NCBI RefSeq assembly: GCF_000337375.1
Contig: NZ_AOJG01000037.1
Coordinates: 13,925 to 55,730 of the forward strand
From: Halorubrum lipolyticum DSM 21995
Lineage (GTDB): Archaea; Halobacteriota; Halobacteria; Halobacteriales; Haloferacaceae
Reading direction: 5' to 3'
DNA: 41,806 nt
A program made the translations under genes and the position numbers. The notes under the pieces were generated by a model, which was not told the origin of the DNA, made no database searches, and saw only the letters and a list, made by a program, of their open reading frames with translations. Shown piece after piece: positions 26,983 through 33,544 of the stretch. How positions within the stretch are numbered: position 1 is the first letter of the stretch; every line of letters starts with the position of its first letter.

Positions 26983-28824
26983 TCAGACGCCCCAGATGAC
27001 CGCGATACCGGCCGTCGCGACGACGGCGAGGAGCAGCTGGAGCGGGCCGCCGACCCGGAGGAAGTCGGCGAACTCGTAGCCGCCGGGGCCGTACACCATG
27101 AGGTTCGTCTGGTAGCCGACCGGGGTCATGAACGAGGTCGCGGACGCGAACATCACCGCGAGGAGGAACGCGAACTCGTTGGCGCCGAGCTGGGCGGCCG
27201 CGCTGACGCCGACCGGGATCATCAGCACCGCCGTCGCCACCGGCGTGATGACGCTCGCCAGCAGGCCGGCGACGGCGTACAGGACGAACATGACGCCCAC
27301 GGTCGGGAGGACCTCGTCGGTCGCGACGAGGAACTCCGAGACGACGGCCGCGCCGCCCGTGGACTCCAACGCGATCCCGAGCGGGATGACCCCCGCGAGG
27401 AGGAAGATGACGTTCCACGAGACGGCGTCGTAGGCGTCGGCGGTCGTCAGACAGCCGGTGACGACCATCACCACCACGCCGGCCAGCGCCGCGATCACGA
27501 TCGGGAGGACATCGAGCGCGGCGAGCGCGACGACGCCGACGAGGACGCCGACGGCGATCGGGGTCTTCGGCGAGAGGGGTGCGATCTCGTCGATGTCAGC
27601 GTCGGCCAGCCGGTCGAGCGCGCGCTCGTCGGCGATGACGAGGTCGCCGGTGTCCGTGAAGTACCGGACGGACGCCGGCGTCGTCCGGACCAACAGCAGG
27701 TCGCCGGCCTCCAGCGTGCGGTCGGCGAGGTCGGTGCGGAACAGGTCGCCGCCGCGGCGCACGGCGAGCACGCTCGTTTCGTGGTAGTCGTGGAGGCCGG
27801 TCTCGGCGACGGTCTCGCCGACGAACGGCGACCGGTCCGGGACGATCGCCTTCGCGAGCATGCCGTCGGTGGCCGATGACTCGAACGTCTCCTCGGTCAC
27901 CGTCTCGCGGGCCCGCCTCCCGAGCGTCGCTTCCCTCCGGAACTGCGCGACCGCCTGCAGGGGGCCGTGGACGACCACGCCGTCGCCCGCCTCGATGACC
28001 CGGTCGGAGTGCGGGCCGGCGTACGCCTCGCCGTCGCGCCGGACCTGCAGGATGCGGACCGCCGGGTGCGCGTCGTCGAATTCCTCGACGGACAGGCCGA
28101 CGGCGACGGATCCCGGTCGCACGTACAGGTGCGTGAGGTAGTCGTCGAGGTCGAACTCCGCGACCGGGTCGCTGTCGACGGGGACGCGGGCGGGCGTGAG
28201 CCGCCAGCCGACGGTCAGCAGGTACGCGCTCCCGACCGCGAGCAGGACGGCGCCGAGCCCCGTGAACTCGAACATCCCGATCCCGTCGCGTCCGTCGATG
28301 AGGAGGCGCGCGAAGTCGCTGGCGAGGATGTTCGTCGACGTGCCGATGAGGGTGAGCGTGCCGCCGAGGATGGCGGCGTACGACAGCGGGAGGAGGAGCT
28401 TCGAGGGGCTCAGCTTCGAGTTCTCGGCGAGCCCGGTGACCATCGGGATGAAGACGGCGACGACCGGCGTGTTGTTCACGAACCCCGCGATGGGGCCGGT
28501 CGTGCAGACGGTGGCGACGAGCGCGCGGAACTCCCGGCCGGCGGTGAACTCCGCGAGGTAGACGCCGAGCCGTTCGACGACCCCCGTCCGCTGGACGCCC
28601 GCGCTCAGCATGTACATCGCGATGATGGTGACCGTCGCGGGGTTCGCGAACCCGGAGATCGCCGCTCCCGCGCCGACGCCGGTCCACGGTTCGAGGACCA
28701 CGAGCGCGGCGACGACGCCGATCGCGGTCACGTCGTTCGGGACGACCTCGGTGACGAACGCCACCAACACGGCGACGATGAGCAGGAAGACCACGGCGAC
28801 GCCCGACACCTCGACGATCGGCAT
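26983..28824 (-). CDS. SLC13/ion-transporter superfamily permease with two RCK_C (TrkA_C) domains
   Basis: 613 residues. N-terminal bundle of about six TM helices with the signature GPIAGFVNNTPVVAVFIP and GTLTLIGTSTNILASDF. Two central cytosolic RCK_C domains (about 222-300 and 325-398: GSVAVGLSVEEFDD..., PFVGETVAETGL...) are followed by a second membrane half ending TPVGYQTNLMVYGPGGY, the repeat-related motif of SLC13/DASS and ArsB-like carriers. Likely sodium-coupled uptake of sulfate, phosphate, dicarboxylate or a related anion. It lies near an ars operon without its own channel, so a metalloid role is possible but unsupported by motifs. A paralogue is at 31484-33544. Confidence 0.92.
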   Translation of the reverse strand: MPIVEVSGVAVVFLLIVAVLVAFVTEVVPNDVTAIGVVAALVVLEPWTGVGAGAAISGFANPATVTIIAMYMLSAGVQRTGVVERLGVYLAEFTAGREFRALVATVCTTGPIAGFVNNTPVVAVFIPMVTGLAENSKLSPSKLLLPLSYAAILGGTLTLIGTSTNILASDFARLLIDGRDGIGMFEFTGLGAVLLAVGSAYLLTVGWRLTPARVPVDSDPVAEFDLDDYLTHLYVRPGSVAVGLSVEEFDDAHPAVRILQVRRDGEAYAGPHSDRVIEAGDGVVVHGPLQAVAQFRREATLGRRARETVTEETFESSATDGMLAKAIVPDRSPFVGETVAETGLHDYHETSVLAVRRGGDLFRTDLADRTLEAGDLLLVRTTPASVRYFTDTGDLVIADERALDRLADADIDEIAPLSPKTPIAVGVLVGVVALAALDVLPIVIAALAGVVVMVVTGCLTTADAYDAVSWNVIFLLAGVIPLGIALESTGGAAVVSEFLVATDEVLPTVGVMFVLYAVAGLLASVITPVATAVLMIPVGVSAAAQLGANEFAFLLAVMFASATSFMTPVGYQTNLMVYGPGGYEFADFLRVGGPLQLLLAVVATAGIAVIWGV

Positions 28825-29107: not shown

Positions 29108-29536
29108 ATGCCCGACACCGTTCTCGTCGCCTTCGACGGGTCGCTGCTCTCCGAGCGCGCGCTGACGTACGCGCTCGAGACCTTCCCGGAGGCGACCCTC
29201 ACCGCGATGTACGTCATCGATCCGATCGACTCGGTCGTCGACGTGGAGGTCGGCGGCCTGCCGGTCGCCGAGGACTGGCACGACGACGCCCGGGACCGCG
29301 CGACCGACATCCACGCGACGGCCGCGGAGCTCGCGGCGGAACGCGGGATCGACCTCGCGACCGTCACGGAAGTCGGCAGGCCCGCCCGGACGATTCTGGC
29401 CTACGCTGACGACCACGATGTCGACCAGATCGTCATGGGTAGTCACGGTCGCTCGGGCCTCGACCGGGCGCTCCTCGGCAGCGTTGCCGAGACGGTCACC
29501 CGCCGAGCACGGATTCCGGTGACGGTCGTCGGATGA
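29108..29536 (+). CDS. UspA-family universal stress protein
   Basis: 142 residues from ATG 29108. The frame is open further upstream without coding character. It starts TVLVAFDGSLLSERALTYAL, continues with the central ATAAELAAERGIDLATVTEVGRP, and has the ATP-binding signature GSHGRSGLDRALLGSVAETV (G-2x-G-9x-G-S) near residues 113-132, then RIPVTVVG. Single-domain cytosolic ATP-binding stress protein. Its stop overlaps the next frame (ATGA), placing it at the head of a short plus-strand unit with the metal-ATPase relic and the HTH regulator. Confidence 0.93.
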   Translation: MPDTVLVAFDGSLLSERALTYALETFPEATLTAMYVIDPIDSVVDVEVGGLPVAEDWHDDARDRATDIHATAAELAAERGIDLATVTEVGRPARTILAYADDHDVDQIVMGSHGRSGLDRALLGSVAETVTRRARIPVTVVG

Positions 29537-30066
29537 CGCGATCAGGGAGGGACGGACGGCCGATCGCTCCCGCGGCGAGCCCGACGACCGCGGCGACCGC
29601 GCGACCGCGGCGAACCCGACGACCGCGGCGACCCCGGCGGCCCCTGACAGCGGCCGTGACCGCCTCTGACCCACCCCCGCGCTCGACGTGTACCGTCCGC
29701 ATCGAACGACGAGGCGGTCGCGGCGCGGCGGGGGCGCGGGCGCTCGAACGTCACCTCCCCGTCGCGCTCGTCAACGTCGACGTCTCCTTCCGAACGGGGA
29801 GCGCTCGGGTCACCTACGACGGGGAGCGCACGTCCGAGGCGTCGATCCGAGACGCGGTCCGCGACGGGGTGAACGACGCCCCGGCGCTGGCGACCGCAAC
29901 GCTCCGGATCGCGATGGGCGGCGCCGGGATCGGCCACGCTGCCGACGGTGACCGCCGACTCGCCGCCGGTCGTCGCTTGTGCCGACCGATCAAAACTGGT
30001 ACGACGCTGTCTCACCAACCCCCACGTATGGGCGAGTCTCTCGGCGGATCGAGGTGGGTGAAATGA
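29533..30066 (+). pseudogene. Collapsed P1B-type metal ATPase relic (HMA domain joined to hinge motif)
   Basis: The 177-codon frame contains an HMA-like domain (about 51-110: CTVRIER ... ARALERHLP ... SARVTYDGERTSEASIRDAV). It runs straight into DGVNDAPALATATLRIAMG (from codon 111, DNA 29863), which in intact heavy-metal ATPases lies about 600 residues later, at the P-domain hinge. The actuator, phosphorylation and membrane domains are gone, and the HMA CxxC is replaced by an RGGRG stretch. The first 50 codons are Arg/Pro-rich and the last 35 look non-coding. Nevertheless both ends overlap neighbours by ATGA, so it may still be translated. The deletion may have used the shared Asp-Gly codons. 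Confidence 0.82.
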
Positions 30067-30656
30067 ACCGACGGCGATCCGATACGGTCGTCGCTGGCCT
30101 GGTCGCCGTCGTCCTCGTCGGCGGCGGCGTGCTCGGCTGGCAGGCGTACCAGCAACAGCAGGCCTTCGACCAGATGGGACCGATGATGGGCGGATCGATG
30201 GGGGCGGTCCACGGAACGAACCCGCTCTGGTACGTCCTCGGAGCCCTCCTCGTCTCGGCCGTCCTCGGTGGGGGATATCTCGCGGTTCGGGACGATCTCA
30301 GCGGCGCGGACGAACCCGATCGATCACGGGACGGCTCGGCGAGTCCGACCGACTCCGAGGGCGCCGAATCTCCGGCGGAGGCCGCTCGCTCGGCGGGAGA
30401 TTTCGATCCGGAGTCTCGGCCTCGCGACCGCGTACTGGACCTCCTGCCGGAGGACGAACGTCGGGTCCTCCGACCGGTCCTCTCCTCGCCCGGCATCACA
30501 CAGATCGAACTGCGGGACCGCTCGGAGTTCTCGAAGAGCAAGGTCAGCCAGACGGTGAGCGCGCTCGAGAAGCGCGGCCTCCTGTACCGCGAGCGTCAAG
30601 GGCGGACGTATCGCGTCTACCCGAGCGACGACCTCCAACGGAACCGGGCGAACTAG
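30063..30656 (+). CDS. Two-TM membrane protein with cytosolic MarR-like winged HTH and Met-rich loop
   Basis: 197 residues from ATG 30063, with the ribosome-binding site GAGGTG. N-terminal MNRRR then TM1 (8-26), a short loop with M38, M41, M42, M46 and H50 (DQMGPMMGGSMGAVHG), TM2 (55-75), a disordered acidic linker (78-115) and a C-terminal winged helix (about 118-190: LRPVLSSPGITQIELRDRSEF, SKVSQTVSALEKRGLLYRERQGRTYRV). Positive-inside placement puts the Met-rich loop outside and the HTH inside, so this could be a one-component membrane sensor. The adjacent metal-ATPase relic and His-rich secreted protein point to copper or another soft metal. Confidence 0.82.
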   Translation: MNRRRSDTVVAGLVAVVLVGGGVLGWQAYQQQQAFDQMGPMMGGSMGAVHGTNPLWYVLGALLVSAVLGGGYLAVRDDLSGADEPDRSRDGSASPTDSEGAESPAEAARSAGDFDPESRPRDRVLDLLPEDERRVLRPVLSSPGITQIELRDRSEFSKSKVSQTVSALEKRGLLYRERQGRTYRVYPSDDLQRNRAN

Positions 30657-30840
30657 CGGACCGTTCCCGCCAACTCTCGCCGCGTCCAACACGCGATCGC
30701 GGGCGCCGGTCGCGGCGGTGTCGGTGCCCCCCCTCGCAGTGGTGTCGGTCCCCTCTCGCAAAGGGGTCGAGCGCCGATCCGGCGAATTCGGGCCGCATGA
30801 ACGGTCCGGCCTCTAAAAAACGGTTAGATCGGGTTATACA

Positions 30841-30855
30841 CGTTCTCGAACGTTC
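30841..30855. promoter_or_regulatory. Candidate operator upstream of the His-rich protein gene
   Basis: CGTTC-TC-GAACG (30841-30852) overlaps the palindrome GAACGTTC (30848-30855), about 70-80 bp before ATG 30924 and just downstream of the TATA-like TTATAC (about 30833-30838). It is a plausible binding site for the adjacent HTH protein. A second small direct repeat (ggtgtcggt...ctcgca, about 30717-30770) lies in the same 267-bp gap, which otherwise shows nothing. Confidence 0.4.
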
Positions 30856-30923
30856 TCCTGATCGGATTCACACCCAGCAGAATAACTCCGGAGGGGTCGT
30901 ACGGGTAACCGAGGAGAAAAGCA

Positions 30924-31340
30924 ATGACCACACTCACACTCGGCCGCTGGCTGCTCGTCGCCTTCGCGATCGTCGGACTCGCGCTCGCTGTCCCCATGGT
31001 CAGCGCACACGGCAACGCGACCGCTGACGACGCTCCGATCGCCGACGACGTCCCTCCGTCTGACGCGACCGCCGACGACTGGGCGGTCTGGATGGAGGCG
31101 CAGATGACCGAGCACATGGGCCCCGACGGCGTCGAGTGGATGGAGTCGCACGCGGGTGCGACCGTCGACGAGATGGCCCGGGACATGGCTGACGACGGCA
31201 ACAGCGGAATGTACGGCCACGGCGGGACGCACGAGCGGGGCGGGACGTACGGCCACGACGGAACGTACGAGCGGGGCGGGACGTACGGCCACGACGGAAC
31301 GTACGGCCACGGCGGGGCGTACGGGCAGGGCCACTGCTGA
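30924..31340 (+). CDS. Secreted His/Gly/Tyr-repeat protein, probable metal binder
   Basis: 138 residues. Ribosome-binding site GAGGAG precedes ATG 30924. Signal peptide 1-28 (GRWLLVAFAIVGLALAVPMVSA), then an acidic Met/Trp-rich segment (50-92: WAVWMEAQMTEHMGPDG, VDEMARDMAD). The tail (97-138) consists of repeats such as GTYERGG/TYGHDG, giving seven or more His residues in Y-G-H contexts, and ends in QGHC. His/Met spacing suggests extracellular binding of copper, nickel or zinc. It follows the membrane HTH gene on the same strand. No enzyme domain; the secreted N-terminal part looks like a haloarchaeal conserved family. Confidence 0.8.
   Translation: MTTLTLGRWLLVAFAIVGLALAVPMVSAHGNATADDAPIADDVPPSDATADDWAVWMEAQMTEHMGPDGVEWMESHAGATVDEMARDMADDGNSGMYGHGGTHERGGTYGHDGTYERGGTYGHDGTYGHGGAYGQGHC
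31233..31304 (+). repeat. Exact 36-bp tandem duplication in the His-rich tail
   Basis: Positions 31233-31268 and 31269-31304 are identical and together encode two copies of ERGGTYGHDGTY. Perfect identity implies a recent expansion, so copy number may vary between strains. Confidence 0.9.
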
Positions 31341-31392
31341 CCGCCCTGACCGCTTCGGCTCGACTGCTGACCGCCCCGACCGCTTCGGCTCG
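31333..31392 (+). repeat. 30-bp tandem repeat across the stop codon of the His-rich gene
   Basis: Units 31333-31362 and 31363-31392 differ at one base (t/c). The first contains the final Cys codon and TGA. Probably a slippage duplication; it may also mark the transcript end. Confidence 0.85.
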
Positions 31393-31483: not shown

Positions 31484-33544
31484 GTGACGAACGCGTTACT
31501 CGATCTCGCGCTGGCGACGCCGACACTCCCCCGGCAGCTCCCGGTAGCGCTGCCCGTGTCTCCCGACGTGTTCGTCGTGCTCGCCGTCGTCGCCGTCGCG
31601 CTCGTCCTGTTCGTCCTCCAGCCGGTCTCCATCGACACGACCGCCATCGCGCTGATGGTCGCGCTTATCCTCCTCGGTCCGTGGACGGGCGTCTCCCCGG
31701 AGGAGGGCGTGTCGGGCTTCTCGAACCCCGCGACGCTCACCGTGCTGGCGATGTTCATCCTCAGCGAGGGGGTTCGACAGACCGGCGTCATCCAGATCCT
31801 CACACAGAAGATGGAGGCGTTCGCGGGCGACAGCGAGTTCCGACAGCTCCTCGCGACCGTCGGGCTGTCCGGTCCGCCGGCGGGGTTCGTCAACAACACG
31901 CCCATCGTCGCCGTGCTCATCCCCGCCGTCATGAACCTCGCCCGGAAGACGGGAACCTCGCCGTCGAAGCTGCTGATCCCGCTGTCCTTCGCCTCGATGA
32001 TGGGCGGAACGCTCACCGTCATCGGGACCTCGACGAACCTGCTCGCGAGCGATATCTGGGCGCAGATCGGGCCGACGGGCGAACCGTTCTCGCTGTTCGA
32101 ATTCACGCAGTTGGGAATCGTCGTCCTGGCCGTCGGTCTCGTCTATCTCCTGACCGTCGGGCGGTACCTCACGCCCGCCCGGATCACCGCCGAGGGGTCC
32201 CCGACGGACCAGTTCGGGATGGCGGACTACCTGACCGACGTCGTCGTGCACGAGGACTCCGACCTCGTCGGCTCGCAGGTCCGAGCGCTGCGGCGCGGCG
32301 AGCTCGACCTCGACGTGTTCCAGATCGTGCGCGACGGCCGCAGCATCGTCCGCGGCCTCCCGAGCGAGCGGATCAGCGCCGGCGACGTGCTCTCGGTGAG
32401 AGCGGACCAGGAGACGCTCGAACAGGTCATCGAGGACGAACACCTCGCCCTCCTGCCGGAGCTCCGCGACGCCGCGACCGACGAGAGCGAACCGCTGCCC
32501 GAGGGGTTCGTGCCGGAACACCACGCGTGGAACCGGTCGCTGGCGGCGGCCGACGCCGCCCCGCCGGCTGACGGGAACGGCGACGGAGACGGCGGAGGCC
32601 AAGCCGACGGAGACGACCGGAGCGAAGCGAACGGGGACGACCCGGGCGAAGCCGACGGGGACGAAAACGCGGACGCGGACGAGACCGCGTCGGAGACCTC
32701 GCTCACGGAGGTCGTCTTGCTCCCCGGGCCGTGGTCGAACAGACGGGACGGCGTCGCCGGCTTCGAGCGCGAGTTCGACGCGACGGTCCTCGCGATCCGG
32801 CGGGGGGACGAGGTGATCCGCCAACGCCTCCGCGACGTCGACTTGCGGGCCGGAGACGTGTTGCTCGTACAGACGAGCGCGGAGGTCTTAGACCGGCTTC
32901 GGTCCGACACCAACGTCGTCGTCTCGAGCGACGATCGGTGGGAGGAGTTCGATCGGACGCAGATCCCCATCGCGCTGGGTATCGTCGCCGGCGTCGTCGG
33001 GCTGGCCGCGCTCGACTACCTCCCGATCATGGTCAGCGCGCTCGTCGGCGTCGTCGCGATGCTGTTCTCGGGCATCCTCAGGCCGGCGGACGCCTACGAG
33101 GCCGTCGACTGGAACGTCATCTTCCTGCTCGCGGGCGTCATCCCCCTCGGGATCGCGTTCGAGGCGTCCGGGACGGCGGACCTCATCGCGACGGGGATCG
33201 TCGCCGGGAGCGCCGTGCTCCCGCCGATCGCGATGCTCGCGGCGTTCTACCTCGGCACCGCGATCATCACGGAGATGGTGAGCAACAACGCGAGCATCGT
33301 GCTGATGCTCCCGATCGCCGTCGAGGTCGCGGGGCAACTCGGCGCCAACGCCTTCGCGTTCGCCCTCGCGGTGACGTTCGCCGCCAGCACGCCGCTGCTC
33401 AGCCCGGTCGGCTACCAGACGAACCTCATGGTGTACGGCCCCGGCGGCTACAAGTTCACCGACTTCGCGCGCGTCGGCGCGCCGCTCCAGCTCATCCTGA
33501 CCGTCGTCACGACGGCCGGTATCGCGTTCTTCTGGGGGATATGA
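31484..33544 (+). CDS. SLC13/ion-transporter superfamily permease with RCK_C domains (second copy)
   Basis: 686 residues from GTG 31484. Same plan as the 26983-28824 permease: about six TM helices with GPPAGFVNNTPIVAVLIP and GTLTVIGTSTNLLASDI; RCK_C domain 1 (about 240-320); then an acidic linker (about 363-408) of D/G/E/A-rich low complexity absent from the paralogue; RCK_C domain 2 (about 409-480); and the second membrane half ending SPVGYQTNLMVYGPGGYKFTDF. The linker accounts for most of the extra 73 residues. An imperfect repeat TGTGGG...CCCACA precedes the start (about 31449-31472). Predicted anion/sodium symporter; substrate unknown. Confidence 0.92.
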   Translation: MTNALLDLALATPTLPRQLPVALPVSPDVFVVLAVVAVALVLFVLQPVSIDTTAIALMVALILLGPWTGVSPEEGVSGFSNPATLTVLAMFILSEGVRQTGVIQILTQKMEAFAGDSEFRQLLATVGLSGPPAGFVNNTPIVAVLIPAVMNLARKTGTSPSKLLIPLSFASMMGGTLTVIGTSTNLLASDIWAQIGPTGEPFSLFEFTQLGIVVLAVGLVYLLTVGRYLTPARITAEGSPTDQFGMADYLTDVVVHEDSDLVGSQVRALRRGELDLDVFQIVRDGRSIVRGLPSERISAGDVLSVRADQETLEQVIEDEHLALLPELRDAATDESEPLPEGFVPEHHAWNRSLAAADAAPPADGNGDGDGGGQADGDDRSEANGDDPGEADGDENADADETASETSLTEVVLLPGPWSNRRDGVAGFEREFDATVLAIRRGDEVIRQRLRDVDLRAGDVLLVQTSAEVLDRLRSDTNVVVSSDDRWEEFDRTQIPIALGIVAGVVGLAALDYLPIMVSALVGVVAMLFSGILRPADAYEAVDWNVIFLLAGVIPLGIAFEASGTADLIATGIVAGSAVLPPIAMLAAFYLGTAIITEMVSNNASIVLMLPIAVEVAGQLGANAFAFALAVTFAASTPLLSPVGYQTNLMVYGPGGYKFTDFARVGAPLQLILTVVTTAGIAFFWGI

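Follow-up and report, generated by a model that had tools for sequence, protein, structure and literature searches.

A putative transmembrane one-component sensor of extracellular Cu(I)/Ag(I) beside a secreted Met/His-rich protein in Halorubrum lipolyticum

CopR (Sulfolobus/Pyrococcus), CopY and CsoR are soluble regulators of copper genes, and membrane regulators of the BlaR/BlaI type and the bacitracin BcrR type pass a membrane signal to a DNA-level output, using domains and ligands that differ from those of the protein described here. Transmembrane transcription regulators (TTRs), which in bacteria include CadC and ToxR, have been surveyed; they combine a transmembrane (TM) region with a DNA-binding domain in one polypeptide and act from the membrane (PMC10269533). 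In Sulfolobus, ArnR and ArnR1 are archaeal membrane-bound HTH regulators with two TM segments that bind promoter repeats and control the archaellum and pili (PMC6396743). E. coli CusS, a kinase acting through CusR, binds Cu(I) via Ser/Met/Met/His in a loose periplasmic loop and controls a periplasmic copper binder (PMC10100754).

Here we describe a locus of Halorubrum lipolyticum DSM 21995, within a window of 41,806 nucleotides (the whole stretch of DNA analysed, whose numbering is used throughout), that probably encodes a one-component transmembrane protein sensing Cu(I)/Ag(I) outside the cell and regulating the adjacent gene for a secreted metal binder (Table 1). In contrast to the soluble regulators CopR, CopY and CsoR, the protein, named MarRTM here, is of the membrane type, lacks Cys and falls far below the CopY model (13 versus 122 bits). 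With two predicted TM regions, where at least one defines a TTR, and a DNA-binding domain on the same chain, it fits by architecture the known class of transmembrane transcription regulators; Pfam scores also give it a winged helix of the type seen in the MarR family. It differs from the surveyed TTRs in this MarR/DUF7343 winged helix, in its two-TM hairpin with a 30-residue metal-type loop in place of a sensor domain, and in having a candidate dedicated operator and a secreted partner; the words 'MarR', 'metal' and 'copper' are absent from the text of the survey (PMC10269533). Unlike MarRTM, ArnR and ArnR1 carry the HTH at the N-terminus and the TM segments at the C-terminus and also possess HAMP and sensor domains, and their boxes are inverted repeats rather than a direct repeat (PMC6396743). 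CusS resembles the proposed MarRTM in placing an extracytoplasmic Cu(I) loop between two TM helices, but it signals through a second protein, whereas MarRTM carries its DNA-binding domain in the same chain (PMC10100754). A limited search of mostly non-subscription literature found no metal-sensing MarR-type transmembrane regulator and, within the papers searched, no mention of DUF7343, which is not proof of novelty. The balance of our evidence tilts slightly towards an undescribed haloarchaeal circuit consisting of a MarR-type transmembrane Cu(I)/Ag(I) sensor, a phased direct-repeat operator and a fast-diversifying secreted Met/His/C-terminal-Cys protein that acts as a sink or ligand carrier.

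The membrane regulator and the decayed genes upstream

Hydrophobicity, AlphaFold and Pfam agree on the architecture that the sequence-only reading had proposed for 30063-30656, namely two TM helices, a Met-rich loop and a MarR-like winged helix. Hydrophobic segments lie at residues 8-26 and 57-75 (Kyte-Doolittle 2.15 and 1.91), and the AlphaFold model places helices at 3-37 and 54-80. Three basic residues precede TM1, and none occur in the inter-TM loop, whose sequence is QMGPMMGGSMGAVHG. A predicted cytosolic DNA-binding head joined to a pair of TM helices should put the Met/His loop on the outer side of the membrane. Across 37 non-redundant homologues, conservation in the loop reaches 1.0 at M42, S45 and H50,.97 at M41 and.95 at M38 and M46; unlike the five Met/His residues, loop neighbours such as positions 40 and 44 are variable. 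Together with the start Met, the loop holds all of the Met, His and Cys residues of MarRTM (Cys being absent altogether). Met and His also persist, in other arrangements, in the loop of more divergent homologues. AlphaFold confidence in the loop is low (pLDDT <50 at residues 43-51).

The winged helix has a mean conservation of 91%, versus 32% for the linker, in the same 37 homologues. It is confidently modelled (residues 120-187, pLDDT about 90), its Foldseek matches are MarR proteins, and residues 123-187 score above the Pfam gathering thresholds for DUF7343 (37.5 bits, threshold 27.6), MarR_2 (33.8, threshold 27) and MarR (26.9, threshold 24.6). When helices of the MarR dimer-interface type were sought in the monomer model, only short helices were seen flanking the wing, at 120-127 and 189-196. 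Two assignments to soluble metalloregulator families were rejected: CopY/TcrY copper repressor (13 bits against a cut-off of 121.95, with no Cys metal-binding motif) and ArsR/SmtB (23.3 bits against a cut-off of 55).

The preceding frame had been read as a relic of a P1B metal ATPase, and comparison with the Halobellus rarus locus (L079) bears this out. The segment 29649-29865 matches the HMA gene of that locus (80% nucleotide identity) and represents the larger part of it, a fragment of about 100 nt at 29856-29959 matches the P1B hinge (83%), and 29953-30070 matches the sensor's own upstream region (75%). Relative to L079, two deletions of 1.6 kb and 0.47 kb separate these pieces and account for most of the P-type ATPase. 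The frame 29533-30066 was thus rejected as an intact P1B ATPase: it retains no more than the HMA portion and the hinge with GVNDAPAL, and the E1-E2 ATPase and hydrolase domains are not intact. In both Halobellus rarus and Halolamina rubra (L140), genes are ordered as universal stress protein (USP), HMA protein, P1B ATPase, in some cases a permease, and regulator; the USP encoded at 29108-29536 is 81% and 69% identical to its counterparts at these two loci, respectively. The block directly upstream of the regulator gene is common to many genera and has been kept despite loss of the gene upstream; it is a possible autoregulation site. A TCTC-N6-TCTC echo 5' of the regulator gene (9/47) is suggestive only. 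As a separate observation, the region is flanked by two CitMHS/TrkA-C transporters (26983-28824, minus strand; 31484-33544, plus strand), which are related to one another by domain content.

Table 1 Features of the Halorubrum lipolyticum locus in window coordinates.
Feature	Position	Strand	Basis
Universal stress protein, retained from the ancestral USP-HMA-P1B-regulator order	29108..29536	+	Pfam Usp, 110.8 bits
Relic of HMA-P1B ATPase gene pair	29649..29959	+	Comparison with L079; two deletions
Upstream block of regulator gene, AATCAAAACTGGTACA..TGTCTC	29986..30062	+	Conservation profile; 75% nucleotide identity to L079
Transmembrane winged-helix regulator (MarRTM), 197 aa	30063..30656	+	Pfam; conserved among haloarchaea
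Putative extracytoplasmic loop M38-GPMMGGSMGAV-H50	30174..30212	+	Conservation in homologues
Predicted cytosolic winged helix, residues 123-187	30429..30623	+	Conservation, AlphaFold, Foldseek
Conserved control region of secreted gene: GAATTCG, ATGAACGGT, AAACGnTTAGA, TATA, direct repeat, TTCACACCCA, GATAAC, ribosome-binding site	30784..30923	+	Leader conservation
Direct repeat ACGTTCTC-GA-ACGTTCTC, candidate operator	30840..30857	+	84 nt before ATG
Predicted secreted Met/His-rich protein, 138 aa, ending GQGHC	30924..31340	+	Homologue comparison
Conserved three-helix core, residues 50-93, Met/His regularly spaced	31071..31202	+	Alignment; AlphaFold pLDDT 81-93
His/Gly/Tyr repeat tail, before C-terminal MYGQGHC-type end	31195..31324	+	TRF period 18/36

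The secreted partner and its copper gene neighbourhood

The partner had been described as a secreted protein with a Met-rich middle and a His/Gly/Tyr tail. Both features are present, with a hydrophobic N-terminal signal ending VSAHG leading into the Met/His middle, but the tail is missing from most homologues and is therefore a lineage-specific expansion rather than the conserved part of the protein. In the alignment, conservation lies in the Met-rich three-helix core and at a C-terminal Cys. The latter is found in 58 of 59 homologues of at least 95 aa, mostly as GHC or GC (e.g. L118:1251-1571), and many unrelated proteins that replace the partner in divergent lineages also end in Cys; the residue might act as a ligand, form a disulfide or provide a point of attachment. 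A fold search with the partner returned nothing significant. On contig 17 of the same genome, a second copy (L149:8364-8822; 70% identical) has its own element and sits in an MCO-partner-SHOCT-DUF302-SHOCT cluster without a regulator, making it a possible remote target of the regulator at 30063-30656. Directly past the end of the secreted gene, a 30-bp unit is duplicated at 96% identity (31333-31392).

Regulator and partner, on whose co-occurrence the sequence-only reading had staked itself, are found together: the partner is present in 65 of 70 genomes with the regulator versus 3 of 100 without it (Fisher p about 6e-37 across 170 family genomes, a value that ignores shared ancestry and plasmid transfer), and at 75 of 85 regulator places it follows the regulator on the same strand, no more than 10 kb downstream. 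Laboratory strains with the pair include Haloarcula marismortui ATCC 43049 (plasmid pNG600, RR_RS01540-RR_RS01545) and Haloferax prahovense/denitrificans. Two partners without a regulator (L164, L165) are truncated or degraded and have no element, while a complete genome, G009 (L166), is a genuine exception, having an intact partner and a perfect element but no regulator. Homologues of the two proteins occur in dozens of genera, with features beyond chance, and in a phylum-wide sample the family was found only in haloarchaea (17/295 genomes). At least 16 identical copies across several genera indicate recent transfer, and because of these, non-redundant sets were used for later counts. A near-identical copper island in several genera (L093-L109), carrying genes for P1B, HMA, HTH, amidohydrolase, permease, regulator, partner, SHOCT, DUF302 and plastocyanin, also points to recent spread.

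The joint inheritance of sensor and partner, together with the adjacency of partner genes to MCO and plastocyanin genes, would suit a secreted protein that serves as a surface chaperone, handing metal to the loop or to the multicopper oxidase/plastocyanin as one half of a ligand-receptor pair instead of acting as a sink. The retention of the C-terminal Cys goes beyond what a simple sponge needs. Divergent lineages, on the other hand, replace the partner by sponge-like His/Met low-complexity repeats, and we regard the chaperone role as unlikely, if the most credible of the alternatives to a sensor paired with a metal sink.

In annotated plasmids, the genes beside the regulator encode a YHS-domain ArsP_1 permease, multicopper oxidase, plastocyanin, SHOCT, DUF302, thioredoxin, an HMA protein, the CopA copper P-type ATPase, DUF411 and YHS proteins; 20 of 27 non-redundant named loci have one or more of these metal genes within about 5 kb. 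The Halorubrum lipolyticum genome encodes five P-type ATPases, and no ArsP_1 permease was found in it. The signal might nevertheless be something other than copper, such as silver, mercury, zinc, or envelope/redox stress: Ag(I) is also bound by Met/His loops, and the DUF302 and SHOCT neighbours have, to our knowledge, no proven copper role. Against this stand the recurrent presence nearby of CopA, multicopper oxidase, HMA, plastocyanin, DUF411 and a four-helix copper-binding protein, and the Met-type, not Cys-type, ligands of the loop, which speak for Cu(I)/Ag(I). A non-copper signal is thus rather improbable in our estimation, although the metal sensed could be silver or another soft metal.

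The direct-repeat element

A conserved stretch of about 140 nt precedes the partner gene. The sequence-only reading had placed a palindrome here, at 30841-30855. Its arms exist (ACGTTC-TC-GAACGT, 30840-30853), but the conserved element is a direct repeat: ACGnTCTC-N2-ACGnTCTC is kept within one mismatch in 41 of 45 non-redundant leaders, versus 17 of 45 for the inverted arms, and a palindromic element was rejected on these grounds. The direct repeat stands directly downstream of the TATA-like box of the partner gene, and ACGnT repeats at -104, -84 and -74 from the partner ATG are in phase with the DNA helix. A matrix scan found essentially a single element at each locus, preceding the start of the partner gene by 84 nt. 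Pattern searching of the 170 genomes gave 75 matches, 70 of them directly upstream of a partner and 68 sharing one identical distance to it (89 nt, counted from the pattern's first base); the reversed control pattern gave zero matches in the same genomes. The Halorubrum lipolyticum genome, scanned by pattern, carries two elements, each at a partner gene. Searches ahead of the other genes of the island, namely those for permease, MCO and P1B, found no element. Two further readings of the leader were rejected, namely an RNA element (consensus fold -0.5 kcal/mol with 5 pairs; no Rfam match) and a hidden ORF starting from an ATG-like triplet at 30797 (weak codon periodicity; triplet not conserved as ATG; repeat conserved in register with itself, not with codons).

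The element might instead be the site of some other factor, such as the AsnC/Lrp-type regulators nearby. Were it bound by such a protein, or by one of the ArsR type, or were it an unusual core promoter, the membrane protein would control something else. AsnC-type regulators do occur in several clusters, and in G009 the element is present although the membrane regulator is missing. However, the element is present in 58 of 70 regulator genomes versus 2 of 100 others (one of these two, G044, not upstream of a partner), and in divergent lineages it stays beside the regulator while the partner changes; we therefore consider control by another factor quite unlikely. Among 13 loci of divergent relatives outside the matrix-building set, the element was near regulator or partner in 10, adjoining the regulator in every case but L156, in which it accompanies the partner gene at a distance of 1.3 kb. 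The downstream proteins at divergent loci with the element are small, secreted and His/Met-rich, most end in Cys, and several are unrecognisable as relatives of the partner; at L158:6557, the element precedes a SHOCT gene whose product has a His/Gly/Met stretch and replaces the usual partner. The regulators L167 and L170 have no element and are placed before HMA/P1B genes.

Least probable is a regulator that reads the state of a neighbouring ArsP_1-YHS permease or P1B pump through a loop contacting the transporter only: of 27 non-redundant loci, 16 have a permease close to the regulator, and the permease-regulator order is stable, but the loop Met/His are kept where the permease is absent, and Halorubrum lipolyticum, with no ArsP_1 and a P1B relic, nevertheless has regulator, loop and candidate operator intact.

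Proposed signalling from outer loop to operator

The copper context, the near-invariant loop ligands and the promoter element at a fixed position favour the metal-sensing reading of the locus, which is partly supported. In the sensor model, MarRTM would sit in the membrane as an N-in/C-in hairpin, with M38, M41, M42, M46 and H50 of the outer loop binding Cu(I) or Ag(I) outside the cell. Metal binding would alter how the two TM helices pack within an oligomer; passed on through TM2 and the variable linker, this change would affect how tightly the cytosolic winged helices hold the tandem ACGnTCTC repeat. Repression relieved by metal is the favoured direction of control, given the position of the repeat immediately 3' of the TATA-like box. 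The output would be a secreted Met/His/Cys protein binding metal at the cell surface. In most haloarchaea the circuit would run into or beside a copper-resistance operon; in Halorubrum lipolyticum, the gene of the adjoining P1B pump has decayed, with the sensor-partner pair remaining and a second partner and candidate operator on contig 17.

A membrane regulator of wide distribution whose operator and output are defined would be a direct candidate, and would offer a minimal model for outside-to-DNA signalling within one chain, as well as a simple part for extracellular metal biosensing in high-salt organisms.
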